A stretch of DNA of 64,000 bases. Source: Arcuatula senhousia. Taxonomy: Eukaryota > Mollusca > Bivalvia > Mytilida > Mytilidae. The notes under the pieces were generated by a model. The model was not told the origin of the DNA and searched no databases. It saw nothing but the letters and a program-made list of their open reading frames with translations. Where the stretch lies: the NCBI GenBank assembly GCA_963971305.1, contig OZ020317.1, positions 18,928,001 through 18,992,000 on the forward strand, in the 5' to 3' direction. Both the position numbers and the translations under genes were made by a program. Shown here in pieces: positions 1,674 through 55,019 of the stretch (positions are counted from its first letter, which is position 1; each line of letters starts with the position of its first letter).

Positions 1674-4600
1674 GTAAGCTATTATCATCTACTCATTTAA
1701 GTTTTACGTTTTAAATAAAGAAGCCACGATGAAAACTTCCGTTACATGTATTTAATGCAAGTCATATTTTCTAAGCAAATTTTAAAAAGGGTAGGTGTCA
1801 ATAAGACCCATTTCTGACCCCAGAGTTACGATGAAATTTATACGGAGCATATATATTTCTTAGGTTGCATAGACATTGATAAATCAAAGTACCGCTGGTA
1901 CTGACAACTCGGAAGTCAGAATGTTTTCTTTTATAATGGAACTTTATATCCAATGGATGAAGAATGTTTGTCACCATATAACATGGTTTAACCCACCATT
2001 TTTTCTTAAAATGACTCAACTAGGCAGCGTACCATATTTCATATCTTGAAAATATTTTAAGGATTTCTTGTAGCATGTCTTTGAGTTGCATAAATTTGTT
2101 TATTTCTGCTGGGTATTCTGTTGCAAATCAATGCGACACATTTTAGTTTCTATTGAATGCTGATTTCAAGGATGGATATTTCGTTAATCTGGTGTTTGAT
2201 AAAACAGTTCCTGTTTTGTGGGGCTTTGTCTTATGTTGCACATTTAATCTATATCTTTTTTTATACTTAATTTTGGAAAGCATTTCCTGTTTTGTGTATT
2301 TGGACAAGGCTGTATATTTATGATATAACCCTTGTGTGCAGTTCATTTTATGGTATTGGAGTAAAAAATTAGCTTTATAATTATGTACTCTGGTAACAAA
2401 TGATTTGTTGCAACAGATACAACTATAAGTGTTATAATTCCTCAATTCCAAGTTCTATGGAATTCTGTTTTGTTGTTCTTCAAGTTGGTATTTTGGTAAA
2501 TTTAATTGTGTCCCAAATTTGGGGCTAATGAATACATGGTAATTTATGCACGATTTCATATGATGAACTTCTTGCATACCAAGTTTCGTTAAATTTTGTT
2601 CAGATGTTTAAGGGTTGTGTTGACTAACTTGACTAACAGATGGGGACAGCCTTATCACCATTTGTACATGTATATCAGGATTTCAGTTTAATGGGTGATT
2701 ATTCACACTATAATTTGCAGATGGAATCCTGGTAGAAAGCACAACATATGATGTACTTTTTAGAAATATCCGTTTACTTGTTCATGAACTATTATCAGGG
2801 TTTTCAACATAAATATTGGGTCAACAGTCCGACAAAACTTTGCTTTTCTAGATTTTTTTGGTAACATGCATATCTATATATGGTGTAGTTCTTGCAAACC
2901 ATGTTTTGTTTGTGTTCAGTAGTATAAGTGGAGTTTCATTTATAGCTTTAAATTATATGTTTAATTTTCAATATTGTCTAAACCCCTAGATTCTTCTTAC
3001 CCCAGACATTGTTAGATAAATTAAGTAATAATTTTCTTCCCCTGTTTGGTATTTTTGGTTTTATTGTTTTATGCTCATCATAATTATATTATGTTTGGCA
3101 TTTTCAATTTTTTTGGTAGAGCGCCTCTGATGAGTCTTGGTGCGTCAGGCGGAGCAATATTTATTGTCTGGAACTTTGTCATTTTTATTATAACAAAGTG
3201 ATGTGTAGGACTGATTGATGGACCAGAGACATAAAGCTCTGCAACTTTTTTGTGTGGGAAATAGATTGATATAACAAAACAAGTTATCTTTTATTATTAC
3301 TTTTGTAGAATAACTAACATTTTTACAGACATAATATTCTTATAGCAGCAATTATGTTTGAAAATATGCATTTTCTATTGAACACATACTTGGTATTTTG
3401 GACAATATTTCTAGACATTAATACCATTTCAATGGTAGCATGTTTATTATTGTTCAATAATTAGTTAAAGTAATCTTTATAACATTACATAGCAATCATC
3501 ATATCAATATTACATATTGATTCACTAAAATGCATCAAAAATGTCACCAACATGTTATATGTAAAAAGAAAATGGGTACAATGATAAAAATAACCCTATT
3601 GGACTTATATGTAAATATTATTTAACCCAATGTTTTGTTTTTAATAAACAATTACTAGTGATTTTTTTTAAATGATAGGGGGCATAATCTGCCTCTAAAT
3701 AATCTTAATTGGTCAAATGTCATTTCATTGACAAGGTTACATTCATAATTGAAACTTATAACATATATTGAAATACATGTAGACAATCTTTAACATGTCA
3801 AATAGTATAATCATTGCTTATGATATTTGTCAGTCAATCTATTTACATTGGATAACTTGTAATATATATCTATTGTAAACAGCTGAGGAATAAGATGCTT
3901 GTACTATGATGAATTGAAAGGATAATTTATAAAATACTTTGTTACAATGAATTGAGTAAATATGCATGCCACAAAATCTTATTAAATACATGAAATAAAA
4001 AAGACTTATGGAGCATTTACAGCTTTCAACTTTTGTTAGTCTTTTATCATTTTTTTATAGACTTCATTTGGCAAATAAATTGGAACTATTTGATTTTATT
4101 CTTTCTTGCACTTGAGCTGTTACACATGGTATGTTGCATTGACACTTGCATGTGTTTTCTTTTTCTTTGTGTGTCTAGTCAACTATTATACTTGTATGTC
4201 CAATATGGGTCCAGACAAAGCTTTCTTCATTAATGTATTGTTCTGCTCTGTATTTGCCTTGATGTTTATGAAGATATGATGTTGTGTGGATCCATCATCA
4301 ATAGAAAATATATAGAGTAACAAACAAACAAGAGGCTCCCAGGAGCCTGAATCGCTCACCTGGTCTTGATGTTGACCCTATACTTTTGTAGAGCTAAATG
4401 AGCTGAACATTTAAGCAAGCAACAGCTTTTCTCTACCTGCAATAGTTTTCATTCTATAGGCCAAAAACACCATTTTTCACCTATAAGGGGCCATAACCCC
4501 TATAAGGAGTCATCTGACAACTTCGACCCTATGGAGACTTTTGTACAGCTAAATGAGCTGAACATTTAAGCAAGCAACAGCTAATCTCTATCTGCAATAG

Positions 4601-7600
4601 TTTTCATTCTGTAGGCCAAAAACATGAAAAAAATCGCTTTTTTCAGGGGCCGTAACCCCTATAAGGGGTCATCTGACAACTTCGACCCTATGGAGAATTT
4701 TGTAGAGCTAAATGAGCTGAACATTTAAGCAAGCAACAGCTAATCTCTATGTGCAATAGTTTCCATTCTGAAGGACAAAAACATGAAAAAACGCTATTTT
4801 TCAAGGGCTGTAACCCCTATAAGGGGTCGTCTGACAACTTCGACCCTATGGAGACTTTCGTAGAGCTAAATGAGCTAAACATTTAAGCAAGCAACAGCTA
4901 ATCTCTATCTGCAATAGTTTTCATTCTGTAGGCCAAAAACATGAAAAATGGCTATTTTTCACCTTTAAGGGGCCATAACACCTATAAGGGGTCATCTGAC
5001 AACTTCGACCCTATGGAGACTTTCGTAGAGCTAAATGAGCTAAACATTTAAGCAAGCAACAGCTAATCTCTATCTGCAATACAGATGGGTCCAAACCTAA
5101 CCTGTATGCAAAGCAAACTAAAAAAGCAAACCAGCAGTTTGGTCTAAGTTCACTTTTCACTTTGTTTGGTTTACTTTTAGCAAACCAAATTTTACTTTAA
5201 TGTTTACTCGAAAAATAAACTAGATGGCTTGTTTGGTTTGGTTTAGTTTGGTTTGGTCAGAGCGAACCAAACTTTAAAAAGCAAACCAAACCAGCGCCCT
5301 AGTTTGATCTGCGCAGATGATTCATATAATCGATGTGAAAGAATGTCCGAACTATTTCACAATTATTACATTTCATGAACAAATATCATTCACTAAATGT
5401 CTCAATCGAATTACAAATTCTGATTTAAACATTTAACATCATATTAGATTGGTATTTTATTAGTTAACCAAACAACCATTAAAGTTTTCTATTTTTAGAG
5501 CAAACCAAACCAGCGGCCTGCTTTGGTTTGGTTTGCTAAGAGCAAATCATGAGCATGCGCAGATGATTCAATGAATCGAAGTAATACGGCACCCGACATC
5601 ATTTCATAATATTTGTTCTCGTAAAACAAATATGTTTTACTTGAAGAATTTATTATGATTTAGATATTAACCATCATTTAAGATTGGTTTGGTAAGAGTA
5701 AACCAAACCAGCGCCCTAGTTTGGTTTGGTCAAAGCAAACCAAACCAGCACCCTAGTTTGGTTTGGTCAGAGCAAACCAAACCAGCGTCAAAGTTTGGTT
5801 TGGTCAGAGCAAACCAAACTAGCCGCCTAGTTAGGGTTGGTTTGCTGTTCAAACCAAACCAAACTAAAAAAAGCAAACCACGGTTTGTTTTGAGTAAACT
5901 GTAGTTTGCTATTTTGTTTGGTCAAGCAAACCAAACCAAACCAGAAAAGTAAACTAGATGTTTGCTTCCGGTTCACTTTTGTACAGGTTAGGTTTGGACC
6001 CATCTGTAGTTTTCATTCTGTAGGCCAAAAACATGAAAAAATGCTATTTTTCACCTTTAAGGGGCCGTAACCCCTATAAGGGGTCATCTGACAACTTTGA
6101 CCAAGTGCAGACTTTTGTAGAGCTTTTGATGCTGAATCAGTAGCGTGGCCTCAGATTTCCTCTATCTCTTATACTTTTTGATTACTAAGCCAAAAACAGT
6201 AGTCTCACCCCCCTAGTCTATTTTTAGTACTCGTGGCCATGTTTTTTGACAGATCAAAAATCGAAACACAAGTTTGGTGCAGGACACCCTAAGGATCAAT
6301 CATACTAAGTTTCATTCAATTCTGTTTAGTAGTTTCAGAGGAGAAGATTTTTGAAAAATTGTTAACGGACGACGACGACGGACGCCAAGTGATGGCAATA
6401 GCTCACATGGACCTTTGGTCCAGGTGAGCTAAAAAGTTCTTATATCACATTTATTTTTTAATATTTCACTTGATATTAAATTCACCACTGAACTCATTCT
6501 TTTACACAACATATTAATTCATGATTTTTACTCAATCTTTTTCACATCATCCTAGGATGTTTATATATTTTGTAGCTGCTCAAAACAAATTTTCATAATT
6601 TCTATAGACTTTTGGACTCCTTAGTTAGAAGAAAAAAGCTCTCTATAAAGGTAAACACTATTTTGATGCTAGATATATCCAGTTTCAGTGAGAATTATAT
6701 ATGCACAGTCAGCATTTATCCATATCTTGAAATTGCAGATGCTGATGACTTTTATCAACTTTTAGCTTTATATGGCTCTTTGTCTGAAAGAAAAAAAAAC
6801 ATTTATACTTAACTTGCTAATACACACACATATTAAACATACAATGTAGGACACGATTCACATATAAATCCACATTTAAATTGATATTTTGCAAATAAAT
6901 AATGTTATAAAAATAAACATCAGCTTACAATAATGTATTTTTTATCAACAATAATGATCAATAATAGTCTTGCAATTTCATATGTCCTAAAGTTGCAGCA
7001 ATTCCACTATAATATTATCAATCAATCAATCAGTTTATTGGATAAAGCTCATGAATTAACAATGCAATGTAATCCCCAAAAGACATATATATATATATGT
7101 ATTAGACATAAGTATAAAATGTAAATAAGATGAAATAAAACATTTTTGTCCCAATATTTCAAGTTATAATATTGCAACATTTAAGGGCTGCAAATTTAGA
7201 ATACAAGGAAAACTGAAGTTTCTTTGCTTTTTTTGTAAGATCAAAGATATTTGATGATAGATTTCCATTGCTTCCAAGTTATTACAATTTCTAAACACAG
7301 TTTCCTATCAACCAGAAGGTTCATGCAATAAACATGAAACCCAGAAAATGTAAAATCAAAACAAATATAAGGTGACATGTGACCAAATTGGCCATGCTGT
7401 TCTTTGAAGATATGTCACATTAATCATTGTTAATATTTGTTTAATTGTTTTAAGTAATAAATACATAACTATTTAGTAGGTCAGAAAATATTGTCAGATA
7501 TTGCTTTAATTTCTTTAAGTCATATACACATGTACATTGTCATTAAAAATCTAAAAGGTCTTCAGGAGGGGGGTAGCTTTCCATAAAATGGTGAACAGGG

Positions 7601-10600
7601 ATGTGCCAAAGAGTAGGCCATGCCCATAAAAATAACTTTTTTATAATTTGTCCGATTTCAAAATATTTTTTCATTGGATACCTTATGAAAATCCCTGCCC
7701 TTTTTTGCAATCTGATTAACAATATTTCTTACATTTTTTTTTTAAATTAGGGGTCAAAGGGCAAAAAATGTAAATTGATATATGTATATAAATAAGGCTT
7801 TTTGTATGAGATGTTGATGTCAATATACATGTATATATGTCAAAATGCATTTGAAAGTCCACCATAGGATGTATCATGTCAAAAAGCTTTGTAAGTCCAC
7901 CATGGGCTTCATGTGACCAAAGCAATAGACTATCCATATTGGGCCTCCAGCGTACAGGGTTCAACTTGTATCGGTCGTATCATGCTGCGCTCGGCGTAGC
8001 TTTTTATTCTATGAGGGCAAACATATCGAAATATTGTACATGATGACAGCTGTACAGAACCTCAGGACCTGTCCTGCAAAAATCTGTTCAGTCCTGCAAG
8101 ATTTGGTGTGTCTGACAGAATTACTGGCTGATCAGACCGTAATTTTGTATGAACAATCCTGGTATCTCGTTATATCATGGTACGTAGCTATGTAGAAACA
8201 GTGACGTCACAGTTGAATATTTGGTTTTGAAATGAAAGTAAATACCACGATAACACAGAACCCATGATATAATGAGAACGGAGTATATTAGTAAATTGCA
8301 GACAAAAAAACGCTTGGGTCAGACACAATTTTCAGATTCACTGGACCGAATGTCCGCTTTTAAAATTTTTCGATATGTCTGCACTCTTGAGTGAAGACAA
8401 CAACCGAGCAGCAACATAACCTTGTGTAAGCAATTTTTGATTTAAAATAAATTAGATTCATATTAGACTCTAATATATTTTTACTAAACAGGTGGCAGTG
8501 TTTTACATTCTATAATAAATACATGTACACAGAGTTCAGCATTGACCTGTAGTAACATATCTATTATTTGTTGTACATGTAGAGGAAAAGAACATAATTG
8601 ATTGAAGAAAAGAACATAATTGATCATGTTGATAGATTACACATAAAATACAATAGACAACATGGTGATACAATCAATATACATGTACAATGTACAAGAT
8701 GTTAATGTATGTAATCGTAAATTAAACAAAACTCTTTAAAATAACATAAATGCAAGACTTACTTGTCACGTCAACTTTTACTTCCGCAAGTCTTGATACA
8801 TCACAGAACCATACCAGATCATTGGGAGCGAGTTTCTCAATAACAAAATCACTATTTTCCTCTGTCGAGACTCCTGGGCATTCATACAAACCGAGATCGT
8901 CAGGTTTGAATTCAGTTTCTATAGTTGTTATGTCGATATTTTTTGATATCAGTTAAAATCAGGCTGCCGTCGCCATGTTTGCCGCTTACGACCTTACAAA
9001 GCAATCGCTTTTTCTCGTCTGGTCCTATATTTTATTTCTACGAGAGTTAGCGACGTGACAACGAGTTGTAACAGTTTGCCGCGCTTCTTCCATTTCATCT
9101 TTTCTCCGACAATACTCGGAAGCCGAAGACTTCCGAGTAAAAAGTAGACCTAATGAAAATGATAAGCTTTTGTTAGATCAGTTCAGTTGTCATGCAAATC
9201 AGTTTACTCGAAAGCTACATATTAAAGATATTGTCATAATTTCATTGGTTTTTGCTGATATTTGCAAACTTGTAAGTCTGGTAGGAGGCGGTCGCATCTA
9301 AATAACAACTTCATACTTGCTACAAATGTATATTGTACTATTTCGGAAAGATCAAGAATTTTTTTAAAAAAATGATAATATCTTAATTTTTCTAGGACGG
9401 TTTGGAATTTTGCTTTTTTGTATTGACATCTACCTAATATCACATTGCAAGTTTTTCACTGAGGTTGAATATAAATATTGTTGAAATATATTGAATTATG
9501 GTTACTCAAATATTTTATATATGTTGTGTACAAGTTTTACTTTGTACAATGTAGAAATATTGCTTGCTTGTACAGTCACAAAATAAAAGTAATAACATGT
9601 ACAAGAAAGGACAAAATCGGACAATGGCATATTGTTGAAAGTGATGAAGATTCAAAATGGTACTTACCTGATAGACGCATTTCAATAAGGATAATTGTAA
9701 TAGATAATGTCGATGAGATGAAGGTTTTAGCTCGCAACAAATTTTCTCTATCTGCAACAGTTTAAATTTAATAGACAAAGAACATTAATAAATGCTATTT
9801 TTGACCTTTAAAGGGATTTTCCGTCCGCTCCAGCTGATGGAGTTTACGTATCTCAATTGATTCGTTACTCCAGAGCGTGCGGGACTTACATCGATTTCCT
9901 TAGCAGAGCGACACGTCTGACGCAAAAATTGCTCACACAGGGTTATGTTGCTCCTCGGTTGCTGTCTTCACTCAAGAAATTTTACGGAAGACATCATGCA
10001 CTTATAGACAAATATGGGATTTCGATCTCTCAGATGAGTGCAGATGTTGGTTTGTCATAGGGTGTTGTTTTGTCTTCCTTTACCGGATTTGACACACTGA
10101 ATGGACTATTGGCAACGCGACGGGTGTGCTATAGCAAGCAGGAACTGCTTACTCTTCCGGAGCACCTGAGTTCACTCTGGTTTCGACTAGAGTTCGCGTT
10201 GTTGATTGATATTCAGTTGTTTTGTGTTTCCATGTTTTACATGTTGTCTGTTTTTGTCCCGTTCTTGTTGGTGTTTGCTGGTTTTGTCTCTGCCCTTTCG
10301 GACTTTTGATATTCGGATACCCCATTGGTACCTCTGCTTCTTGTATACGAAAAATTAAATTTTTGCACTATTAAAAAAGGCCAACAGACAACCTGTTGTG
10401 TCTAAATTTTAATATATGAACAGCAAAAACAAAGTTTTAGTCATCTTTCAATCTACAAATCGTAAAACATTCATCACTAAATAATACTTTTAAAGCTTTA
10501 CAAAAAATCCTATTTATGAGCTCTAATGCCTCCTTTAGCATGCGCACTGTATTTAATTGTGTTAAACTTTATCTCGATGTTTAAGCCCGTGTAGAAATTT

Positions 10601-14499: not shown

Positions 14500-15790
14500 C
14501 TTAAACTACAAAGGGGGGCATATATATTCGCGTCGTAATATTTTTGCGCTAGTAATGTGAACGCGAAAATCACAAAACAATAAAACAACACACAACAAAA
14601 AAAACCAAAAGACAAATACAACCGAACGGAAATCAATAACGCGAAACGAGAGTCAAAATTCGTCGTGTCGAAATTGATAAAAGAAGACAAAACCTAACCC
14701 TATGATAAACCAACATCTGCACTCATCTGAGAAAAGCAAAGGTGTACCAAAGGGGTATTCAACATCATAAAACCGTAAAGACAAAGACAAAACCGGTAAA
14801 CAAAAAATCATCACAACGAAACAAAACACGCAACAACATAAAACATACACACACACATTATAACACCAGATAGAAATACCATATTTGTCAATGAGTGCTT
14901 GATGTCGACCGTTACATTGTTTTGTTGAAGACAGCAGCCTAGGAGCAACATCACTTTCTGTTAGTAATTAAAGTGTCAAACGTGACGCTCTGGCAAAGAC
15001 ATTGATGTAATTCCCAAAGCTCTCGAGTAACAAATCAATTGTAATAAGTATATTCCATAAACTAAAGCGGACTGAATGTTGCTAAACAAGAATGAAAAGT
15101 TGACAATTGGAAAATTGAGGACATCATGTTTGTCATTGAGCTTTGTAAAAATTGTCCTTGAGAGTTTATTTTGAAATGTAGATCTAAATATGAATCAGAT
15201 TTCCTAAAATATGTTGTTTTCTTTACCTCAAATTCCTGAGTATATATGGGGGGAAGAAATTCACCAAATGATGAATTGTTCAGTGAAAGGACATCATTAA
15301 TAGAACGGAAAATAAGGTGAAAAGAAAAAGTAAGGGTATGATTTTTTATGTCCAGAAAAAATTGTAAGAAGTCTGCGTCATATGAATGAAGCAAACCAGC
15401 ATGTAAAGGCGCATTATTAGTGCCAATTGGAATCCCTATTGTTTGCTGAAAGAAAAGTCCACAAAACTGAACAAATATGCTGTCGATAAAAAAATTAAGG
15501 CTGTCAATTATTAGAATTCTGTGAATTTTTTTTCTTTAACTTATTGAAGACCAGGTAAGTCTTAGTATAAGCGACAATTGAATATTTGTACATGCGTTTT
15601 TCATTCTTTTTGAAGAAAACTGCGTTTAATCAGTTGTCCAAACCGTGATTTCAGTTGTTCATGTGAAAAAGAAGTATAAAAAGTGGAGAGATCGAAAGTT
15701 TTGATAATGCTACAAGATGAATATGGTGATAATTGTGGAATTTTCACTACTGCCAATACTAATGAACATGTATAAAAGAAAAGCAAATAT
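14500..15790 (-). mobile_element. YIDD-type reverse transcriptase pseudogene, longest copy
   Basis: Read on the minus strand from 15790 down: motif A region (KTFDLSTFYTSFSHEQLKSR), motif B region (FFQQTIGIPIGTNNAPLHAG), motif C mutated to SINDVLSLNN, a DLHFKINSQGQ segment, a C-terminal LLSSL block at about 14910-14960, then the AT-rich 3' tail to about 14500. The frame is broken several times. The first catalytic Asp (FDLS) is kept; the YIDD pair is damaged. Confidence 0.6.
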
Positions 15791-16232
15791 GAAATGAGGA
15801 GAAGGGTTTTTATGAAATATCAGATTAAATTTAATGCTCTATAATGTATAATGTATTCAAATTAGTCCATTTACTGCTATCTCTTTGGTTGAAACACTAT
15901 TTTATGAAATTTTATATTTAATAAGTTATGGCTGTTTTAAATTGTTACTACTGGGCGATAACCGCTGCTGGTGGACCAGAGGTCCCCGAGGGTAATCACA
16001 AGCTGGTAGTCAGACTGTCTGACACGAATTACCATAAAATTTCTAATATATTGTCGCTGAAATTTCCGATTGTTAAATTCAAAATTTATGAAAACACCAG
16101 GTTTCTTTCCTTGTAATGCACATGGTCAATATCCTCGGTGCTGGATTTGGCTTCCTTGTTCGAACGTTTTGGTTTTGAGTACTTTTCGTTTTCAACTGTT
16201 TTGGATTTTGACCTTCCAATGTTTTGGTTTAA

Positions 16233-16278
16233 ATGCTACTGATGAGAGGTTACTCCTTGAAATATCGATATATAGCAT
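16233..16278 (+). ncRNA. Type I hammerhead ribozyme, monomer 1
   Basis: Stem I ATGCTA (16233-16238) pairs with TAGCAT (16273-16278), six perfect pairs. Core CTGATGA 16239-16245. Stem II GAGG/CCTT with loop TTACT. GAAA 16259-16262. Stem III is a three-pair hairpin with loop TCGA. The cleavage triplet is AUA, with the cut expected after A16272. All invariant core positions are present. The short stem III and open stem I are typical of retrozyme hammerheads. Confidence 0.85.
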
Positions 16279-16613
16279 ATCCAAATTAACCGTTTATACC
16301 CGCGTTTTGGTATTTGTAATTTTGAAACCACTGGGCGATAACCGCTGCTGGTGGACCAGAGGTCCCCGAGGGTAATCACAAGCCTGGTAGTCAGACTGTC
16401 TGACACGAATTACCATAAAATTTCTAATATATTGTCGCTGAAATTTCCGATTGTTAAATTCAAAATTTATGAAAACACCAGGTTTCTTTCCTTGTAATGC
16501 ACATGGTCGATATCCTCGGTGCTGGATTTGGCTTCCTTGTTCGAACGTTTTGGTTTTGAGTACTTTTCGTTTTCAACTGTTTTGGATTTTGACCTTCCGA
16601 TGTTTTGGTTTAA

Positions 16614-16659
16614 ATGCTACTGATGAGAGGTTACTCCTTGAAAAATCGATATATAGCAT
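16614..16659 (+). ncRNA. Type I hammerhead ribozyme, monomer 2 (stem III weakened)
   Basis: Same fold as monomer 1, but the T after GAAA is replaced by A. This breaks the second pair of the already short stem III. Core, stem I, stem II and the AUA triplet are intact. Reduced activity is predicted. Confidence 0.75.
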
Positions 16660-16994
16660 ATCCAAATTAACCGTTTATACCCGCGTTTTGGTATTTGTAA
16701 TTTTGAAACCACTGGGCGATAACCGCTGCTGGTGGACCAGAGGTCCCCGAGGGTAATCACAAGCCTGGTAGTCAGACTGTCTGACACGAATTACCATAAA
16801 ATTTCTAATATATTGTCGCTGAAATTTCCGATTGTTAAATTCAAAATTTATGAAAACACCAGGTTTCTTTCCTTGTAATGCACATGGTCGATATCCTCGG
16901 TGCTGGATTTGGCTTCCTTGTTCGAACGTTTTGGTTTTGAGTACTTTTCGTTTTCATCTGTTTTGGATTTTGACCTTCCAATGTTTTGGTTTAA

Positions 16995-17040
16995 ATGCTA
17001 CTGATGAGAGGTTACTCCTTGAAATATCGATATATAGCAT
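16995..17040 (+). ncRNA. Type I hammerhead ribozyme, monomer 3
   Basis: Identical to monomer 1 across the whole fold. Stem I is ATGCTA/TAGCAT and the cut is expected after A17034. Confidence 0.85.
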
Positions 17041-17375
17041 ATCCAAATTAACCGTTTATACCCGCGTTTTGGTATTTGTAATTTTGAAACCACTGGGCGA
17101 TAACCGCTGCTGGTGGACCAGAGGTCCCCGAGGGTAATTACAAGCCTGGTAGTCAGACTGTCTGACACGAATTACCATAAAATTTCTAATATATTGTCGC
17201 TGAAATTTCCGATTGTTAAATTCAAAATTTATGAAAACACCAGGTTTCTTTCCTTGTAATGCACATGGTCGATATCCTCGGTGCTGGATTTGGCTTCCTT
17301 GTTCGAACGTTTTGGTTTTGAGTACTTTTCGTTTTCATCTGTTTTGGATTTTGACCTTCCAATGTTTTGGTTTAA

Positions 17376-17421
17376 ATGTTACTGATGAGAGGTTACTCCT
17401 TGAAATATCGATATATAGCAT
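17376..17421 (+). ncRNA. Type I hammerhead ribozyme, monomer 4 (G-U pair in stem I)
   Basis: Same as monomer 1 except C to T in the 5' strand of stem I (ATGTTA), which converts a C-G pair to a U-G wobble, so pairing is kept. Core, GAAA and AUA are intact. Confidence 0.82.
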
Positions 17422-17462
17422 ATCCAAATTAACCGTTTATACCCGCGCTTTGGTATTTGTAA

Positions 17463-20400
17463 TCAAAAAGAGCATGTGCTGTTAATAGATGTAGTAATTT
17501 ATTGGGATGCATTAAAATAAGTAATAATGAAACAGTTATTGCCTGTCGTTCAAGGGTACCCCCTTAACCAAAATGTATTACTCAATATCACACTTAGATA
17601 TAATTAGCATCATGAAAACAACCAAGATTTGAGGGACGCATGTGCAGCCATGATATCAAAATTCATACTTATGTATGCTTCATGTTGCACTTTTGCAATG
17701 TCATTTTTTTTTAATATCAAGCACAATTAACGACATGGTCTTAATAGCTCTATTTAAAATCAAAAAGATAAACTATATACTTTGATGTTATTTAAATGCA
17801 ACACACATGCTTTAATCTCAGATCTGTATAATGAAAAAGTACAAAATATATTTTTTAAACGTCAAGACATAACAGTACCCTTTTTTAAATCTGGATCATA
17901 CTTTTATCAAATGAAAGTTGTAAGTTGTATCATTTTTATAATTATAACTTTATTAAAACATTCAATGAAAAATATGAGAGAGCATAATGCTAAAAACAAT
18001 AATCAATACATTGAAAGGAGATTAGGTTTATGGAAAACCCTGAAAAAACAGGTTAGTGCCATATGGTCACAAAAAAAATGAAGTTGATTAATTAAAATAT
18101 TTTAATGATGTACATGTAAATGAATTGGAACGGCTGATTGAACCTTTAAAACAGTATTTAATAGTACCACATAAGGTTCTCGGTACTTCTGATCGATTAC
18201 GGGCATAATTTATAAAATATGCTAAAATTATCTCTAATCATATTTTCTAATTTTATCATTTTGTCAAGCAAAACCACCAAAGTATCTCAAATGCAAATTT
18301 AAAACTTGCCCTTTTTCCCACGTAACAGATTTTTTTTCTAATTTTGGTTGCTTTTATATCTATTATATCAATATTAAGAATATTACATTTTAATAGATTG
18401 AAATTTGCATAAAATGTTACAATGTAGATATTCATTACTCAAAATCAGTTTTAATCGATGAAAAAACCCAACCCCTTCTGTTCCTTATCGAACTAGCAGG
18501 CAAAAATGCATTAAAAATAGTCGAAGTAAGCTTTGATTCTTGGACATTATTATGGATTATTCAAATTTGGTTTAACAGTTGAACAATTAAATAATAAGCA
18601 ACATAACTTAAACAAATTAAGCATATAAAATTCAATTGTCCTAAAATATGAATAACACAACTAACTTTACGATAGGACAGACTGATATTACTTTTTTCGA
18701 AATAGAGTAAAATCTTACTGTATTTGATAGTGTCACAGAAATCAATTTATGAAAGTACAATAACCACATGATATATACGATTAGAACCGAGGGCTAAGCG
18801 ATTAGAAAAGCAGGACTTCGAAAAGCTGCGAACCGATTACGAAGTTGTCACAATGTTGTCAAGATTAGTCGAGAAATAGATCAGAATGTTGTGTTTAGCA
18901 TACAATGGGTCTATGATGCATCACGATTGGTATACGATGTAAGAAATGTAATAACGCGATTTGGAATAAATTATATAGTTTACTCTCTATAAATGGTTGC
19001 TTCTAATTAGAATGTAGGGAACAAAGCTCGCACAGTATAACCCTGCTGTCTCTGATGTCGATCAGTAAGAAAAGATGAGACATTTGCTCTAAAGCTAATA
19101 TATAGAGACTTAAGATAGAATAGAAAAAGGTGATATTACTTATTCCTGCTTTTCGTGCCTTGTATTAGTTGAACGAAGCACACATCTTCTGAAAACAGCA
19201 AGTATATAGTGTGAGTATGAAGAAACATTACTCCAAAGCATACATTGTTATTGCAAACCGTGTTAAATATGACAACCCGTTTTGTAATAAAGTGTGAAAT
19301 GTAATTAAGCGTTTTGCAAAAAAAATCATAGTTCAGTCTACAATTTGCCCGTCTTATTGATTTGTTTAGCTCTGCCAAAATTTAATGTCATTACTCTATG
19401 CAATTAAACTAGTTGCGACGGATATTCGAATACAAGGCAAGGTATTCGCGACTCCGTGTTTCCTTCGCACCACCTTTGGAGACCTCATCGTTTTATTCGT
19501 TTCGCCATCATGGGATAAATGAACCAACGACACTTCGAAGGCAACACGAAATCAGAAGATGCTGTTACGACGGCATTACGTAAAAAAGGATAGAGTAACG
19601 AACAAAACACGAACAAGGACCTTCGCACGAACATTTGGCAATGTTTTAACATGTTAAAAATTCAGGAGGCAGTGCAAAGTTTACCCCGAAGTCAGAAAAT
19701 TTCCACAGAAAGCGCTACGACGGAATAAGAAGGCAACACGAATAGCGCGATCTGAAAGCGATCAGTCTCGATGCTGAAACTATCCATAATCGTGTTTCGA
19801 TCAGGGACTAAATCGGGATAGTGTGAGGCAAGCATTAAGAATTCTCCAAAATAATGTTTCTTTATCCGGAGTTGCTTCCTAGTAACTCTCCTAGGTTTAA
19901 TAAAATTATCTCTTAAGATTATAAGTATTGTTTTGAAAAAAAGTATTTATGCTGCAAATGAGAGGTCTCTCATCTTAAGATACAATGTAAAACTAGAAAT
20001 TAAATTATTTTATAAGTTCAAGCATTTGTTCATTCGAAATCGGAACCAAGCTTTATCCTTATTTCAATCCATATCTAGCTTTCACTTTCGAGTATTGCCT
20101 TTTATTTGTAGCTGATCCTACATTATGTACCAAGTCAACTCTTATTGAACTCAACATAAATGTGTTAAAACGTGCACAAAGGTATTAGTCTCTTCATACA
20201 CGGGATGACCTTTTTCATCATTTCTGAAGATGAAAACATCGTTTCTTGAGGTCATCTCCACTCATGATTTCAAGAGACGGTCAGATAATTGTTCCGTGAA
20301 ATTGTCACGCCATACAAAAATCAAACTACGACTCTTTTGTTGACACCGTTAAACGCTAATAAATTGTAAAAGTGTTGTTGCATTTAGCACTAGTTTGCTC

Positions 20401-21180: not shown

Positions 21181-21596
21181 CACTCGAAGTTACTGACAGC
21201 TAGCTAAGAAGCATCTATCGACTGATGTAAAAAGTCAAGTATGTCGATTTTAAATCAGACCCAACACGTCAAACAATTAATAATTTTGTGGTTCATCACA
21301 CAAAATCGACACACTTGACCACTGTGAAGCTCCAAAATGACAAAAGTATAAAAAATCAATTAACATTTTAAACATATTTGCTTTATAAACAACATTGCCG
21401 TAAAGATTGGGATGGGATATTCCCTTAACAATCAAAATTCGACAGGTAAAGTTCAATTAGGGTATAGATATGTTTGATAAAACTTAGTAAACTACTTCAC
21501 TACTTTGTAGTAAAGATAAACTTGTTTTAGTAATTTTTTTGTAATACACTGGTATTTATCATTAAAATCAGACACACCAATGCAGATCCGAGCATA

Positions 21597-22060
21597 TCAT
21601 ACCAACTGTAAAATATATACTCCGTAAGACGGAGCAAGTGATACATCTCCCTCTAGAAAAGGAAAATTAACAACCGTAACGGAAAAGTCATCCCGTTTAT
21701 CATATATTTTAGTGTGTAATTTTCCATTGATACTAAATAAATCTAGATCTTCAAATGGGCATCTATCAACAGTAAGGTTACAATTGTTCAAAGTTAATTC
21801 CATAAGATAAATTCCCGAAATAGAAAATGTGAGATAGGTTAGTGAAAGAATGTCTAAATATCTGTATGTATTATTTAAAGATTCAAAGATATGTTATTTG
21901 TTGGGGTCTTTTTGAAGTATTGCCATAATTTGGGATTCAAAACAACATAAGAGAAAGTCAGCAATAATTGGAGCACAATAAGTTCCTATAGGGATATCAA
22001 TGACTTGGCGATAAATTGTGTTCCCCAAACGATTTTAAATGTTTTCCAAAAGATAATGGA
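21597..22060 (-). pseudogene. Degenerate RT fragment of a second lineage
   Basis: Minus strand: FGNTIYRQVIDIPIGTYCAP (motif B), then NTYRYLDILSL (motif C with the second Asp lost), ELTLNNCNLTVD, KLHTKIYDKRDDFS, NFPFLEG and LAPSYGVYILQLV. The wording (ELTLN, GDVSLAPSYG) differs from the other copies in the window, so it belongs to a separate branch of the same RT family. It is frameshifted and truncated. Confidence 0.6.
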
Positions 22061-22084
22061 GAAGAGTAATCATTTCTGCATCAG

Positions 22085-22425
22085 TCCAATTGACGTACTA
22101 TGTAGTTTTTGTACTTAAATAAAGGTAATAACAAAACTACCGAACTTGAATGATCAATCTCATTGTCCAGAGAAAATGACAAAAACGAATCAGTCATACC
22201 GGAAAATGGGTGGATCGCAATGGTCCTGACTTGGTACAGGCATTTCAAACGAAATGATGAGTTAAACCAGGTTTTATGGCGCCAAACCTCCCTCTTGCAT
22301 TGCGATCTTAGGATCCGGTAATGACCATAGAACACAACATAGTTGTGAGACACAATAGAGATATTGAGGTGATCATCTCAGTACAGCAGACCAGTCAAAC
22401 ACTAATTAAAACCACCATATCTTTT
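22085..22425 (-). repeat. Dispersed repeat A, copy 2
   Basis: Minus-strand match to 1-170, extended by AACACAACATAGTTGTGAGA and the CACAATAGAGATATTGAGGT block. It lies between two RT fragments of different lineages. Confidence 0.7.
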
Positions 22426-22510
22426 AACTCAATTTTGAACTTTTCTACTAGTGGCTGATAACGAAAAAATGTTTTTTTAGGGATCGTATGAGACGTATTT
22501 TCTTATAGCC

Positions 22511-22915
22511 CTACTCCAAAAGTCGGTCACGATGAAATTGGTGTCTGATCAAAAATCTGTGAAATGTGTTCAAGCTCTGGTATATCGAATAAGTTGTGAA
22601 ATATAAACACCGTATGCAGAGGAAGTAGATATTATTGCTCTGCTGTAGATTAGGAAAATTAATAATTTGAAAATTAAAATCGTCTGGTTTATCGTAAATT
22701 TTTGAACAGAGATGACCACCAGGGTCAAATTCGAGGTGCAAATCCAAGAAAGACTTGAAGCAATTCGATTCGATGGTCTCTTTAATCTCCAATTCTGGAG
22801 GATATATTGAAGGAATCCATCTACCAAATGAAGTGTTATTGACAGAAAGGACATCATCAATATATCTGATTGTAAGATTAACTGACCTTGACTCTTTCAT
22901 CTTCTAACTATATTT
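22511..22915 (-). pseudogene. RT fragment with intact YIDD motif
   Basis: Minus strand: IRYIDDVLSVNNTSFGRW, IYPPELEIKETIESN, FLDLHLEFDPGGHLCSKIYD, DDFNFQIINFPNL, then drift after a frameshift. Motif C is intact, but motifs A and B and the C-terminus are missing. A different dispersed repeat (22085-22425) separates it from the neighbouring RT fragment. Confidence 0.6.
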
Positions 22916-23639
22916 AAAGTTAGTATTAAGCAAAATGTTTTTTTTTTATTTTCAAAGCAGTTTCATATGTTTTTATTTGTTTTTAATCAAAACTATTGAT
23001 CTATATTCATTCATATTGTACTTAATAAAATTCATCAGTTATTAGACATAAATTTTGTAACTATATTAATATATTAAAAACATTTTGTAAATCGTTAATA
23101 TTTACTAATGACCCACGTAAGATGGACAACAGTCTGGAGGAATTGTCTTTTAAGTCAAAATAATAATTGTCCATTAAGTCTCGTTTGAAGGACTGAACTA
23201 CATTTCAAAAAGACACGTATGGTGTTGCCTGATATAAGTCTATAGATTTTTGAATTAAAAGATATTTAAAACTTCAAAGGGAAGGGAAATAATTTTAAGC
23301 AAATGCTTATTGTGACCATGCAAATTGGCAAATTTTGACGTTAAACTCTGACTTTTATTTAATAGAGTTAAGCAAATGCCCTTTTTTCAGGAACGAGTTT
23401 AAGTAATATTATTTTTGTATTGCTATGAAAGACTGCTTCCGAATCATCTTAATGAGGTTTTCTTATTAAGAAGATTTGAATTAAAACTATGCTACTATTG
23501 TGACCATACAATATAGTTTATGAGCACAACTCATTTGCTTAAGTTGGTGTCGGTTTGCACTCTAAATTCTTTATATCTTGCTAGCACATATACATGTAGA
23601 ACGTAGAAAAAATATGAAAGGTGTTACTTTCATGCGTGA

Positions 23640-24490
23640 TCTTCAGAAGTAAATTTTCTAATCGACAACATATTTGTACAGTTTAGCGGACGTGTTTTTC
23701 AACAAACAATTGGTATCCGAATGGGCACAAATTGTGCACCATTGCTTGCCAATTTGTTTCTTCATTCATATGAAGCAGACTTCTTACAATCACTTCTAGA
23801 CAAAAAGGACCGCAAACTTGCTTTATCCTTCAATCTATTATTTCGTTATATTGATAATGTCCTTTCACTAAACAATCCTCAATTTGGTGACTATTTACAT
23901 CCCATATATCCGAAGGAACTTGAGATAAAGTACACTACAGATTCTAGGACGTCCGCTTCATATTTGGATCTATTTCTCGAAATTGACACACAAGGAAGGC
24001 TTTGTACAAAGCTCTATGACAAACGTGATGACTTCAACTTTCCAATAGTTAACTTTCCCTTTCTGTGTAGCAACATTCCGTCCGCTCGAGCATATGGAGT
24101 TTACGTATCACAATTGATTCGTTATTCCAGAGCATGTGGGGAGTACAACGACTTCCTTGATAGAGCTTCACGGCTGACAAGCAAATTGTTAACACAGGGG
24201 TACGTTGCTCCCAAGTTGTTGTCGTCACTCAAGAAATTTTACAGACGACATCATGTGCTTGTATACAAATACGGGATTTCTATCTCTCAGATGAGCACAG
24301 ATGTTGGTTTGACATAGAGTTTTGTAATGTCATCCTTTCCAGATTTGACCAACACTTAATCGATCTTTGGCAACGTGACGGGTGTTCTATAGCAAGCAGG
24401 AACCGCTTACTCTTCTGGAGCACCTGAGTTCACTCTCGTTTCGACTTGAGTTCGCGTTGCTGAATGCGGTTTTGTTGTTATGTGTGTGTG
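23640..24490 (+). mobile_element. 5'-truncated YIDD-type retroelement, RT half almost intact
   Basis: An open frame from about 23640 to 24317 begins NFLIDNIFVQFSGRVFQQT, runs through MGTNCAPLLANLFLHSYEAD (motif B), RYIDNVLSLNN (motif C with the second Asp changed to Asn), the LYDKRDDFNFPIVNFPFL block and the C-terminal SLKKFYRRHHVL and ISISQMSTDVGLT. It has over 220 codons without a stop. The 3' tail (GGGTGTTCTATAGCAAGCAG and on) breaks off near 24490 at a different repeat. Motif A and everything upstream is missing. The Asp to Asn change predicts a dead enzyme. Confidence 0.65.
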
Positions 24491-25649: not shown

Positions 25650-27352
25650 TATGTCGCCTGCAACGTGTTGCAGAAGCGACATATAGGGGTTACTTTGGCA
25701 CTATCCGTCGTCTTGCGTCGTCCTGCGTCGTCGTCCTGTGTCTTCCTGCGGCGTCAAAAAAATTTCCGTCGCAGTTTTCCAGGCAACTATATGTCACAGC
25801 CTCTTGATATTTGGTATGTAGCTTCATCACATAGTACTTTAAAGTGTAAAGCGATTCTATGCCCGAAAAATTACTACTTCCTGTTTGACGAATACTTAAT
25901 GTTTTATATATAATGGACATAGATGCCAAATTTTCGTCACAGTTTTCCAGGCAACTACATGCCACAGCCTCTTGATATTTTGTATGTAGCTTCATCTCAT
26001 TGTACTATAAAGTGTAAAGCGATTTTATGTCTGAAAAATAATTACTTCTTGTTTGACGAATACTTAAAGTTTTATTTACATGTGTATAATGGACATTGAT
26101 GCCAAATTTTCGTCGAAGTTGTCCAGGCAACTACATGCCACAGCCTCTTGATATTTGGTATGTAGCTTCATCTCATAGTACATTAAGGTTTAAAGCGATT
26201 TTATGCCCGAAAAATAACCACTTCCTGTTTGACGAATACTGGACGTTTTGTATCTAATGGACTTAGATACCAAATTTTCGTCGCAGTTTTCCAGGTGACT
26301 ACATGCCACAGCCTCTTGATATTTGGTATGTAGCTTCATCACATAGTACTATAAGGTGTAAAAGGATTTTATGCCCGAAAAATAACTACTTCCTGTTTGA
26401 CTGTCGCCTGCAACGTGTTGCAGAAGCGACATATAGGGGTTACTTTGGCACTATCCGTCGTCCTGTGTCGTCCTGCGGTGTCACAAAAATTTCCGTTGCA
26501 GTTTTCCAGGCAACTATATGTCACAGCCTCTTGATATTTGGTATGTAGCTTCATCACATAGTATTTTAAAGTGTAAAGTGATTGTATGCCCGAAAAATAA
26601 CTACTTCCTGTTTGACGAATACTTAATGTTTTATATATAATGGACATAGATGCCAAATTGTCGTCACAGTTTTCCAGGCAACTACATGCCACAGCCTCTT
26701 GATATTTGGTATGTAGCTTCATCGCATAGTACTATAAAGTGTAAAGCGATTTTATGCCCGACAAATAATTACTTCCTGTTTGACGAATACTTAAAGTTTT
26801 ATATACATGTGTATAATGGACATTGATGCCAAATTTTCGTCGCAGTTTTCCAGGCAACTACATGCCACAGCCTCTTGATATTTAGTATGTAGCTTCATCT
26901 CATAGTACATTAAGGTTTAAAGCGATTTTATGCCCGAAAAATAACCACTTCCTGTTTGACGAATACTTGATGTTTTGTATCTAATGGACTTAGATACCAA
27001 ATTTTCGTCGCAGTTTTCCAGGTGACTACATGCCACAGCCTCTTGATATTTGGTATGTAGCTTCATCACATAGTACTTTAAGGTGTAAAAGGATTTTATG
27101 CCCGAAAAATAACTACTTCCTGTTTGACGAATACTTAACGTTTTATATTTAATGGACATAGATGCCAAATGTTTTTGTCATAGTTTTCCAGGCAACTACA
27201 TGCCACAGCCTCTTGATATTTGGTATGTAGCTTCATTGCATAGTACTTTAAGGTGTAAGGCGATTTTATAGCTGAAAATTAACTACTTCCTGTTTGGCGA
27301 ACAAACATAGATAGGCAGGCGACATATGCCTTCCGGTGAAGGCTCCATCTAG
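25650..27352. repeat. Element with about 170-bp internal repeats in a 727-bp higher-order duplication
   Basis: The unit CACAGCCTCTTGATATTTGG starts at 25795, 25963, 26139, 26307, 26522, 26690, 26866, 27034 and 27204. The first four and the next four positions differ by exactly 727 bp, and the second set includes a second copy of the left end TGTCGCCTGCAACGTGTTGC + AGAAGCGACA, itself a long hairpin. The right end reads GGCAGGCGACATATGCCTTC, inverting the outer GTCGCCTGC, with its own GCCTT..AAGGC hairpin. No coding capacity. Confidence 0.75.
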
Positions 27353-28654: not shown

Positions 28655-29290
28655 CAGACTGTAAGAAGCAAAGAGGCACCAATGGCAAAAGTTAAAACGG
28701 GCAACGACATAACCGGTAACCACGAAAAAGAGCAGCACAAAGAAACACAAAACGCAAATCAAGCGAACGGAAGTCAACAACGCGAACTCAAGTGAAATTT
28801 TTGTAAACTCAGGTGATCCCGAAGAGTAAGCGGTTCCTGCTATACATGTAGCACACCCATCGTGTTGCTAATTTCAAATTCAGTGTGACAAATCAAATAA
28901 ATGAAGACAAAACAAATCTCTACGACAATCAGCATCTGCACTAATTTGAAAGAAGCAGAGGTATCGATGGGGTATCCGAATGTCAAAAGTCCAAAAGGGC
29001 AGAGACGAAACCAGCAAACACCAACAAGAACGGGACAAAAACAGACAACATGTAAAACATGGAAACACAAAACAACTGAATATCAATCAAAAACGCGAAC
29101 TCCAGTCGAAACAAGAGTGAACTCAGGTGCTCCGGAAGAGTAAGAAGTTCCTGCTTGCTATATCACACCCGTAAATTCCATATTTGTCTTCGAGGTGACG
29201 GTGTCTGCTGTACAATTTCTTGAGTGAAGATAGCAACAGTGGGGCAATATAACCATTTGTTAGCAAGTTCTTCCAATTAATCTATTTATC
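28655..29290 (-). mobile_element. Two overlapping 3' ends of YIDD-type retroelements
   Basis: Minus strand. At 29180-29290 the RT C-terminal LLSSL segment is recognisable, followed by the ACTCTTCCGGAGCACCTGAG tail down to about 28895. A second tail copy of the same kind follows at 28655-28890. Open frames here are tail sequence, shared with the other copies, and not genes. Confidence 0.5.
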
Positions 29291-29679
29291 AATGTCTATT
29301 GCCTTTACAAAATTGAATACTTTAAATTCATTTGGTATTAAAAACGAAAGAATATGGAATATGTGTCAGAAAGACACGATCCACATATTGAAATGTTACT
29401 TTAGATTTAGGTTTTTGAAAAAAATCCGGAATGCAGGTTAATATCTTATGCCTTGAAATCTTAAGTATACAGTGTCTGAGTGTGTTAATGCATAATTTAT
29501 CCTACTGTTATACTAGTCTTCAAAGCGATCTTTAACAACATTATCATGATCATTCAATTTAATGCAGCTTTTATCTCTATAGATTGTACTAAACAGACTT
29601 TTCAACGATAGGCTTAACTTTTTTTTTTTCATTTATTTGAAACATTGGGCTTGAATCACATGTAGTATATTTTCAATCC

Positions 29680-31219: not shown

Positions 31220-32171
31220 GACGTAACATTGAAAAGCCTCAAACCATAAGAATTGAATGAAAATTACTCAAAACCAAAAAGGTCAAACAGAAAAACCAAA
31301 AGCAATCGGGAATTTCATTGACAAAAACATTAGAAAAAATGGTAAAATCGTGCGAGACAAGTCCGACGACCAAAGCTTTTAAAATAACAAACACATTTTT
31401 ATGATGTGTAAAAATGCAACTTATAATTTTTTAATTCAAATACATTGAGGGGTTTTGCTTGATAAAATGATAAAATATTAATGCATAACATGAGTTAATT
31501 TGTAACATATTTTATAATTCATGCCCTAAAACGAAAATATCCAACGTTACGTGTGTGTCAAGGATCGTTTGTTGCACTATCAAATATTTTTACTGGTTTA
31601 ATCAGCCGTTAAAATTCAGTAATATCTTTTGAATATCTGTATTCATTAAACTTCATATGACAATTTGACAATCATCTGTTATCTTCTGGTTTTCCAATTA
31701 CCAAATTTTCTATCCATATACTTTAAAGCGTTTTGAACCATTTTTTTTTCTCGCATGCTTATTCCAATGTCGTTTTTACACAAAACACACATTATATGCT
31801 TTAAATGATGATGCATTATTCAATTACATGATTACAAAAAGCTTTAACTATGTTTAGACGTTACAAAACACGTTTCGTAGTTTCTCATTCTCATGATAGT
31901 AAAGCATGCATGTTTCTATCAAATCATTTTCTTTGATTTTAAAAAAGCAACTTATGTCATGTCCCGTTTGATATTTGAAAAGTTGTAACATTGCAAAATT
32001 GCATCATCATTCGGCACATCAGCGTGATTTTTCGATATCATTTATAAATTTATATTTTTTTGATAGTCATTATAATCCTAATAGCATTTAACGAATTATC
32101 AGTGTCAGTGAATTACTCATTTTAATTACCTGTGCGTGTCAACTACGCCGGGGTACCTCATTAGCATGAAT
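31220..32171. other. Intergenic, nothing recognised
   Basis: Plain AT-rich sequence between the GGGCATGGCG cluster and the CAGATGGG element. It lies upstream of the 49-aa gene candidate. Confidence 0.4.
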
Positions 32172-38614: not shown

Positions 38615-38925
38615 TTTTTGGCATTAGTATTTTGTTTTAAAACCACTGGGTCGATATCCACTGTTGTCGGACCAGAGCTCGCCAAGGAAAATCAAAAGCC
38701 TGGTCCTCATACTTGTCGACACGAATTTTCAATTCATTTTAATACATTTTTGTCGTTCAAACTTCCTGTTGCTAAATTCAAAATTGTGTAAAACACCTGA
38801 AATTGTGGGTTTCAACCTTCCAATATTTGATTCAAATGCTGCTGATGAGATTACTACTTCAAATATGTATATATGGCATCACCAAATTACCCGTTTGTAC
38901 CATTTGGGTATTTTATATATCAAGT
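38615..38925 (+). repeat. Solitary, diverged monomer of the 381-bp hammerhead satellite
   Basis: It starts around TTTTAAAACCACTGGGTCG and runs through the monomer in order: a GTCGACACGAATT block, GCTAAATTCAAAATT, GAAATTGTGGGTTTC, CTTCCAATATTTGATTC, the hammerhead, then CCAAATTACCCGTTTGTACC and GGGTATTTT. The middle has lost about 60 bp relative to the array. It ends at the same monomer position as the array. Confidence 0.78.
38836..38879 (+). ncRNA. Decayed hammerhead ribozyme (G12 lost)
   Basis: CTGATGA (38842-38848) is intact, and stem I still pairs as ATGCTG/TGGCAT with wobble pairs. GAAA has become CAAA, replacing the catalytic G12. Stem II is degraded. Inactivity is predicted. Confidence 0.65.
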
Positions 38926-47410: not shown

Positions 47411-47529
47411 CTACATTTTGTACTTTGTAATAGGTTTAACGAATGAGTTTCATTATATTCATTATATTCGCTTTCATTCGATTGCAAATTATTTTTATTA
47501 AAAAACAGTTTGCACGTTTCATGTTTTAT

Positions 47530-53034: not shown

Positions 53035-55019
53035 ACAAACAAGTATTTAAATTATCTGAAAGTATTAATGTATATAACATAACGGATAAAAAAATATATA
53101 TATACATTTGATCGTATTATGCCTGAATATAAAATTTTGTCTGCACACACGGTGTTTAAAGTAAGATATAAGCCAATATCCTTTACATAAAGTTAAACAA
53201 AATAACATAGTGATATTACCGAATGCGTTAGCCTTGTCCATATTTCTAGTGAGACTTATTTCATCTACTGTGCTCAACTTAATTTCATTATGACATTTTT
53301 AGGTTTGGTTTTATCAGTAATATTATGATATACATGCATAAACATCGTATGCATGTATCGATTACTTTTCTAGGAAAAAGAGACTATAGAGCAACATTTT
53401 TTCCTCTTGTTCGTATATAATGTTTAATAAATTAATGTACATTCATCTTTATTATCAGCATTTTAATTGATATCATGTTAATATCAAATCCAAATTCATT
53501 TGGTATGGTATGGTATGTCAAATTAAGATACCTTATATAAAGTCTTTCTGTTGCTTTTCAATTTTCTTGCAAAAGGAGTACACATCAAGAAAAGTGTACC
53601 AAATATTGTATATAGGTTTTCCTTCAATTGAGAGTAGAAAAAAATAGTCCTCTATCCCGAAAAAGCAATTTTTATCAACATTCTTTGCCAAATTAGCTTT
53701 ATTATAAACAAAACTTCAATTATTCTAATGTTCATTTTGACCCAATATCGTCTGATGTCAAATATTGAGCTTGAATTATTTTAAGAGTCATGCCTTCACT
53801 TTCAATTCCAATAGAATCGTAGGCCTCTTGAATGAAATAATCTCTAATATTCAAAAAGGTAAGGCTTCCAAGGGGAACATGTTAATCATGCAACCATGGA
53901 TCATGTTTTCTATTTATTCTAACTTACGAACAAGTCTGTGAAATGGATTTGTTTGGATTTTGTTAGAAAAATTTTGGTTCTTGGACAACTTTTGTAAAAC
54001 ATGAAGGTGTCTGATTTGCACAAAGCACAAAAATGATGAATTGATTGCAAAGTTTTAAGTTTGTTGAAATGAGTATCCTGTAAAACAAAACTTACCTCGA
54101 AGTATTTTCAACACTATGATGATACCCAAAATGAAAAAAATAAAAATAAGTACAAACCTGATTTTTAAACAAAATCAGTATTGGTGTAGCCGAAGATCAA
54201 AGACTGATATCTTGAACATAATATTAAATCTCACCGATCGCAAAGATTCAGGCTTTGAAAGTTTTGAAGCCGTCACGCTACGAAGAAAATGCACCACGTG
54301 AGAAAAAATATAGCTCTTTGGCAAAAAAAAGATATCTTATGTCAACGAATAAAAGATACAATGTATCGACCATGTGAAGCACAAGGAAAGAAACCTGGAA
54401 TTTTAAAAAGTTTGAATTTAACAATCGGAAAATTCTAAGACCAATAAATTATTTGAAACAAACCCATTCTATTTGCTACATTTTTTATGCACTCGTGTAC
54501 TGTAAGATAAAATTAGACATTTATATATCATTCTATGATTTGTCATGTTACAATATTTCTCATTCAGAAACTGTTTTTACAAATTCAATAATAAAAATCT
54601 AATTGAGAAAAAAATATCAGTGCTGGAGCTGAATGAAAAAATCAAAATTAGCTAGTGTTAATCTTAACTTAAATTTAATGTCAAGAATACAGTCTCATCA
54701 AAATTTCCTATATATAATCCAAATTAAAAAATATCGAGGAAGCCATTGAAATTTCAAAACTATAAATATTAAAGCTATTTCTTAAAATATTAATTGCAAA
54801 TTAGGTTTTTTTATCATGCATCTTAAATGAAGTAATATCTTTGATACAGGGAAGTTGAGTATAACTGTACTAATGTTTATCATATTCTGATTTAATGTAG
54901 GATGCAACCAACGTTCTGTTCATTTCTAATATATACAAATGGTATATAGTCATGGAAATATATTGTAATCCCAAAATTGTGAGTTGACATATTCCCGGTC
55001 AAATGTATTCTTTAAAATG
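53035..55019. other. Intergenic, nothing recognised
   Basis: AT-rich. A 61-codon frame at 54116-54301 has no recognisable domain. Confidence 0.4.

Follow-up and report, generated by a model that had tools for sequence, protein, structure and literature searches.

How the metazoan retrozymes return to DNA, and whose machinery they borrow in doing so, is stated to be an open question in the available parts of two accounts of these elements (PMC7761336, PMC7229834). A tandem array in a 64,000-nucleotide stretch of the genome of the bivalve Arcuatula senhousia (contig OZ020317.1, positions 18,928,001 to 18,992,000, hereafter the window) raises this question in a concrete form: is the array a retrozyme, and what do the ends of its relatives say about how such an element is inserted? 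In Mytilus galloprovincialis, non-LTR retrozymes of ~350-390 bp come with about 5,000 hammerhead ribozymes (HHRs) and abundant circles, and circularisation of the mussel retrozyme RNA by a host ligase is reported in vitro; the same text, as far as it is available, does not decide between target priming and small-RNA priming for metazoan retrozymes (PMC7229834). In the accessible part of the other account, the repeats are described as having no conserved motif that points to a mobilising element and as seemingly being without promoters (PMC7761336).

The array and its ribozyme

Tandem Repeats Finder places the array at 15950-17463, with a period of 381, 4.0 copies and 99% matches, which confirms the tandem 381-bp array that the first-pass annotation had seen at 15950..17462 (Table 1). 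The exact 381-bp spacing that it had given for the hammerhead copies is borne out too, the four cores starting at 16239, 16620, 17001 and 17382. The unit size (381 bp, four units) lies inside the 150-450 bp range of metazoan non-LTR retrozymes, and the GC content of window positions 16001-18000 (array plus flank) is 0.352, below 50% as in those elements. The longest stop-free stretch of the circular 381-bp unit is 104 codons, in a check that covered its length and left its conservation aside, and the array appears to be without a protein-coding region, as expected of a metazoan non-LTR retrozyme.

The HHR core pattern matches the window four times, as against 0.04 matches expected in shuffles. 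When a descriptor that demands the core together with all of stems I, II and III was run over both strands, it recovered three of the four cores (16239, 17001 and 17382); the minus strand of the window and 40 Markov-shuffled windows gave no match. The earlier claim that every monomer holds a complete HHR stands for copies 1, 3 and 4 and goes slightly too far for copy 2, where a T>A change in stem III breaks one of three pairs; in copy 4, a C>T change in stem I leaves a G-U pair. In this family, here termed family A, stem II is closed by a G-U pair, and stem I extends past an internal loop as TTTGG/CCAAA. The predicted cuts after 16272, 16653 and 17034 agree with the positions proposed previously, and that after 17415 is an additional fourth.

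The match to a hammerhead covariance model, which had been proposed as a check, was not obtained from Rfam for the window array: a search of the window and of the array gave no match for the family A HHR, even at E 10, and the threshold of RF00163 Hammerhead_1 (34 bits) was not reached. The HHR scores in Table 1 come from R1, a model of the HHR built from family A itself. Folding energy does not set the HHR segment apart (z -0.24), and the hammerhead pairing has -7.0 kcal/mol, as against -11.0 for the minimum-energy fold, which pairs the core otherwise, in an energy model that contains no HHR tertiary contacts. Since Rfam is empty and the folding energy ordinary, the case for the HHR rests on sequence and comparison and not on energy. 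In the alignment of family A HHRs (the 32 of 42 distinct rows that are exactly 65 nt long), nine cells have both sides of a pair changed, which none of 500 shuffles reached; the number of pairs changed on both sides (two) is not above that in the shuffles. Older copies have a G-C pair beside the cut where young copies show A-U.

The window array is almost certainly a retrozyme. Its reading as a metazoan non-LTR retrozyme, which the first-pass annotation had put forward, is well supported by the unit size, the HHR type, the dispersed high-copy arrays, the lack of a long frame and a sister family that Rfam does call, although Rfam misses the family A HHR itself.

Table 1. Positions of retrozyme and reverse-transcriptase features; positions are those of the window unless a locus is named.
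Feature	Position	Strand	Evidence or remark
Retrozyme family A insertion	15950..17463	+	four tandem units (380+381+381+372 bp)
Structured box copy 1	15948..16011	+	model R2, 79.2 bits
Hammerhead type I copy 1	16223..16287	+	predicted cut after 16272; pattern, descriptor, model R1 99.2 bits
Structured box copy 2	16328..16392	+	model R2, 87.5 bits; fold; pairs
Hammerhead copy 2	16604..16668	+	predicted cut after 16653; one stem III pair broken; pattern, model R1; fails strict descriptor
Structured box copy 3	16709..16773	+	model R2, 87.5 bits
Hammerhead copy 3	16985..17049	+	predicted cut after 17034; pattern, descriptor, model R1
Structured box copy 4	17090..17154	+	model R2, 83.1 bits
Hammerhead copy 4	17366..17430	+	predicted cut after 17415; stem I C>T with G-U kept; pattern, descriptor, model R1
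Fixed 3' end of element, GGTATTTGTAAT	17452..17463	+	putative site at which reverse transcription begins
Old diverged family A copy	38616..38913	+	HHR damaged, with CAAA in place of GAAA; internal deletion; ~75-79% identical; R1 61.8 bits, R2 49.7 bits
Diverged family A fragment	31225..31382	-	without HHR
Family A fragment	54364..54451	-	without HHR; 84% identical
Old copy of retrozyme family B	2944..3182	+	
Fragment of retrozyme family C	29336..29395	-	95% identical
Family C	L040 2451-3250	-	units 397 bp apart
Family C	L045 6043-6463	-	units 397 bp apart
Reverse-transcriptase element fragment	9746-10090	+	
Reverse-transcriptase element fragment	14866-15759	-	
Reverse-transcriptase element fragment	21465-22903	-	
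Reverse-transcriptase element fragment	23553-24356	+	
Reverse-transcriptase element fragment	37166-37797	-	
Reverse-transcriptase element fragment	47489-47881	+	

Copies in the genome and related families

Genome-wide (1.036 Gb, 1,803 contigs), there are 5,710 exact matches to the HHR core, and the exact pattern of another part of the unit, a structured domain here called the box, occurs 4,382 times in the same 1.036 Gb; the reversed control gave 0 in both cases. Family A copies are present in 4 of 18 arbitrarily placed 10-kb stretches, with none in the two stretches that flank the window, and they take the form of small arrays and single truncated copies, dispersed at thousands of sites on both strands.

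The same genome holds retrozyme family B, found through distant boxes, whose hammerhead differs from that of family A. Rfam Hammerhead_1 matches it with 36.5 bits at two places in locus L033 that are 357 bp apart (gathering score 34), and five other family B places match below the gathering score. Retrozyme family C has a 397-bp spacing and its own hammerhead-like core with A-A at the base of stem II. Two minor observations belong here: at L044 8729-9050, a piece of a family B hammerhead is followed nearby by the 3' tail of a reverse-transcriptase element, the two being either neighbours or a chimera, and in the window a weak hammerhead-like match lies at 38354-38418 on the minus strand (23.6 bits, E 0.13).

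Ends of the insertions

Insertion ends were mapped on a circular unit in which position 1 begins ACTGGG and the ribozyme cut falls after 324. The mapping reference was a tandem without ends, and a preferred end is therefore not created by the method. The mapping took 33 of 54 places, in loci mostly picked by the box and from the first 30 Mb of one chromosome; left out were three places of at least 90% identity cut by the end of the locus, 13 that were uncut but below 90%, and five that were below 90% and cut or interrupted.

In 31 of these 33 clean insertions, the 3' end lies at unit positions 368-381. The common 3' end is ...TTTGTAAT, 48 nt downstream of the ribozyme cut, and the usual text there is GGTATTTGTAAT, followed by the flank. 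One exception, L067, has an internal deletion, yet TGTAATTTTGAAA can still be read near its end; the other is a 31-nt piece in L084. Around the unit, the 3' ends of the 33 insertions are far from uniform (Rayleigh p 9e-13) and the 5' ends are scattered and indistinguishable from uniform (Rayleigh p 0.44). None of the 33 has its 3' end at the ribozyme cut, and one has its 5' end at 317-333, where a 5' end made by the ribozyme is expected. Most clean insertions (28/33) exceed one unit, the longest reaching 2,581 nt, under a box-based selection that favours long ones, and their array lengths are not whole multiples of the unit.

A later set of eight loci was made up of the first unfetched HHR places on the same chromosome, one of which was cut. 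The 3' end lies at 368-381 in four of the seven uncut insertions, and in six of the seven when 2 nt extra are allowed; one insertion of this set ends at 337. As for the other families, nine of the ten family B copies with a 3' end inside the query end at B positions 420-442, between the cut (390) and the box (453), the tenth (in L059) ends at 409, and four family C copies end within 343-352, all of these being uncontrolled alignment ends of older copies.

Junctions and target sites

The flank right after GTAAT matches the next bases of the template, TTTG, over a mean of 1.52 nt, as against 0.52 nt in the control, which was the same flanks read further out. Homology to TTTG of at least 3 nt is found in 10 of 31 junctions, compared with 5.3% expected, and none of 20,000 permutations equals this. 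The junctions are those of the 31 of 33 insertions with a recognisable end, and they include the spurious 31-nt piece in L084, which counts against homology.

At L068, family A is inserted into a family B copy, and the empty site, CCCCAG^TTTGG, is present exactly in four places (three in L033 and one in L080), with no loss and no duplication at the insertion. L061 and, weakly, L080 agree with the L068 pattern. Duplications of the target were seen in L054 (6-9 bp), L079 (6 bp), L057 and L069 (5 bp each) and L059 (about 5), and the junction of L051 has small changes and extra T; over 30 insertions, target duplications are not above chance (p 0.15). In family A insertions, they are mostly absent or short; in metazoan non-LTR retrozymes generally, such duplications, where they occur, are expected to exceed 4 bp. 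Junctions of this kind, with TTTG homology and little duplication, are to be expected if a nicked target pairs with the UUU(G) stretch of the RNA. Separately, a 10-nt inverted repeat brackets the insertion at L066 366-1421, its two arms being TTACGAGGAT and ATCCTCGTAA.

A structured domain beside the fixed end

The box begins about 10 nt past the fixed 3' end and combines a stem and a variable hairpin with two strands that hardly vary, CTGCTGGTGGA and TCCCCGAG. In a collection of 84,980 species, the box pattern was found in one record, a contig of a Bathymodiolus symbiont assembly (L022) with five matches, which is probably host DNA. At 4551-6307, this contig has a tandem repeat of the box by itself, with a period of 74 bp and 23.5 copies. 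The Mytilus retrozyme may carry the box as well. A model built from the boxes of family A and L022, R2, finds distant boxes in samples of the genome at 24.6, 22.5 and 21.6 bits, which belong to family B, and another at 16.5 bits (E 0.15). In family C, the box was not recognised.

Folding of single sequences gives one shared box architecture in family A, the Bathymodiolus contig and family B. In an alignment of 15 hand-picked boxes laid out by structure, the 17 pairs are formed in 92.5% of cases, and in four of the 17 both partners have changed, a result that 0 of 2,000 shuffles equalled (another set, of 11 boxes, was also hand-picked). When halves are exchanged, the 5' half of an A box with the 3' half of a B box forms 12 of 17 pairs, as against 16 of 17 for A itself, and the 5' half of B with the 3' half of A forms 15 of 17, as against 17 of 17 for B itself; the exchange between the Bathymodiolus contig and A forms 16 of 16, and an exchange is thus not always harmful. 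Between family A and the Bathymodiolus contig alone, one pair is changed on both sides. Independent covariation events in the box are few because there are only three lineages. That the box acts as a recognition signal is an evenly balanced proposition.

Two segments of the Bathymodiolus contig were looked at beside the box. An HHR-like segment at L022 4486-4538 is unconfirmed, the best scores of the family A HHR model being 13.7 bits (E 0.45) and 12.8 bits (E 0.7). A strong inverted repeat at L022 2192-2268 matches microRNA-precursor families below their gathering scores.

A proposed cycle of insertion and its alternatives

The best reading is, with good probability, target-primed reverse transcription of circular retrozyme RNA, with a start beside the conserved structure. 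Transcripts of tandem copies would cut themselves at the type I hammerhead, as its motif suggests, and the unit-length RNA would be closed by a host ligase into a putative circle, which the first-pass annotation had put at 381 nt. A reverse transcriptase, presumably that of some autonomous element, would begin at a single site on the circle, ...UUUGUAAU^UUUG, with the 3' end of the nicked target paired with UUU(G) there. Copying would then run toward the 5' end of the RNA, often for more than one round, and stop at random, and the structured domain ~10 nt past the start point may hold the RNA on the enzyme. The target-primed start at a fixed site is highly probable. A circle rather than a linear multimer is a fairly likely template, judging from genomic DNA: it fits the multi-unit arrays, the one fixed 3' end, 5' ends that do not pile up at the ribozyme cut and the near-identical units. 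Folding did not find the circle more stable than chance (z -0.3). A wider proposal, which is tentative and somewhat doubtful, is that a conserved, covarying RNA domain of bivalve retrozymes positions the circular RNA on the reverse transcriptase, with a fixed UUUG-primed start next to the domain, and that this is common to families with different ribozymes.

Within arrays, the units are very alike. The 76 units that reach 340 nt show a median difference of 1.0% within the same locus, as against 5.3% between different loci, and in 14 of 18 arrays the mean difference within the array is below that to the closest other array; in the other four (L050, L036, L073 and L056), it is not. This likeness is explained by a circle copied several times, and later exchange within the array could explain it too. 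The mixed units of those four arrays would suit a linear multimeric read-through transcript of the array, primed internally at UUUG, with HHR and circle uninvolved; such a template would also yield multi-unit arrays, a fixed 3' end and a random 5' end, and would agree with the absence of HHR-made ends from the insertions. However, it sits badly with the near-identical units of the other 14 arrays and with an exact HHR core that is kept in thousands of copies and would be useless under this explanation, which is unlikely.

Tandem arrays with homogeneous units would also arise if unequal exchange had multiplied the repeat locally, which would make it an ordinary satellite and its hammerhead a relic. 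This is very improbable: family A is spread over thousands of sites on either strand, as short arrays or as lone truncated copies, and the fixed 3' end and the exact empty site contradict it. One fixed end and target duplications within chance could also be those of a non-autonomous DNA transposon, for example of the rolling-circle type, with internal tandem repeats, but the opposite ends fall all around the unit and the junction homology is to the bases that come next in the element itself, as when RNA is the template for priming, and a transposon of this kind is hardly credible.

The fixed start, the primer homology and the adjoining structure together favour target priming, and they offer a testable signal and a handle on the partner enzyme. 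Should the template be the circle, target-primed reverse transcription would give a natural route for writing circular RNA into a genome; if the domain does position the RNA, it would be a defined initiation signal for the target-primed reverse transcription of RNA circles.

Relation to known elements

Like family A, the Mytilus galloprovincialis retrozymes come from a bivalve, have units of ~350-390 bp with a type I HHR, and are tandem, non-coding and present in thousands of copies; the fixed 3' end, the junction homology and the box seen in family A go unmentioned for them in the available part of that account (PMC7229834). The retrozymes of Acropora, axolotl and Nematostella share with family A the type I HHR, the short tandem units and the lack of a long frame (PMC7229834, PMC4918200, both in their accessible parts), whereas their unit sizes and sequences are unlike those of family A. 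The 15-bp target duplications of the Nematostella retrozymes, given in the accessible part of their description (PMC4918200), contrast with duplications that are mostly absent or short in family A. Penelope-like elements, as the available parts of two accounts describe them (PMC7229834, PMC7761336), resemble family A in that they tend to be tandem and have type I HHRs, but stem III is of canonical length in family A. Target-primed reverse transcription of the LINE type likewise has a fixed 3' end, 5' truncation and short primer homology; unlike LINEs, family A has multi-unit products and mostly no target duplication, and its 3' end is tailless save for a few extra T in some copies.

Within the literature searched, which left supplements, preprints and most subscription papers outside its scope, no description of a fixed 3' end, of primer homology or of a conserved domain in retrozymes was found. 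Family A is thus a retrozyme of a kind already known, and its insertion anatomy and its domain are, as far as this literature shows, undescribed. Among the viral contigs scanned, the HHR, the box and a mussel pattern each gave 0 matches; a loose HHR pattern matched 21 contigs.

Reverse-transcriptase elements and other features of the window

The reverse-transcriptase fragments of the window (Table 1) are, by their motifs, probably Penelope-like. Pfam gives a weak RVT_1 match, below the cut-off, in their homologs, and no solved structure in the PDB matches the fragments. Several copies have a common 3' tail that ends near GCTTCTT, and incomplete tails follow one another in tandem at 28600-29180 on the minus strand. 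In those 3' tails of the window elements that were read, neither HHR nor box was found. A short string common to these tails and the box, spotted by eye, was dropped as probably due to chance.

The window also contains two related rhodopsin-type receptor genes (7tm_1), at 855-1700 and 40948-41874, with 76% DNA identity over ~800 bp. Their relatives are bivalve neuropeptide-type receptors, and for one receptor gene of the window the first eight relatives named by organism are all from bivalves (Mytilus, Mizuhopecten, Pinctada, Crassostrea, Ruditapes and Mercenaria). A 158-bp tandem array (4382-5081, 55682-56033 and 57035-57441) has diverged relatives at other places in the window, on the opposite strand, and 168-bp tandem arrays form two blocks within 25706-27301. 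Finally, arrays of 37- and 58-bp units, at 5684-5841 and 32354-32809, consist of the complementary arms TTTGGTTT/AAACCAAA.
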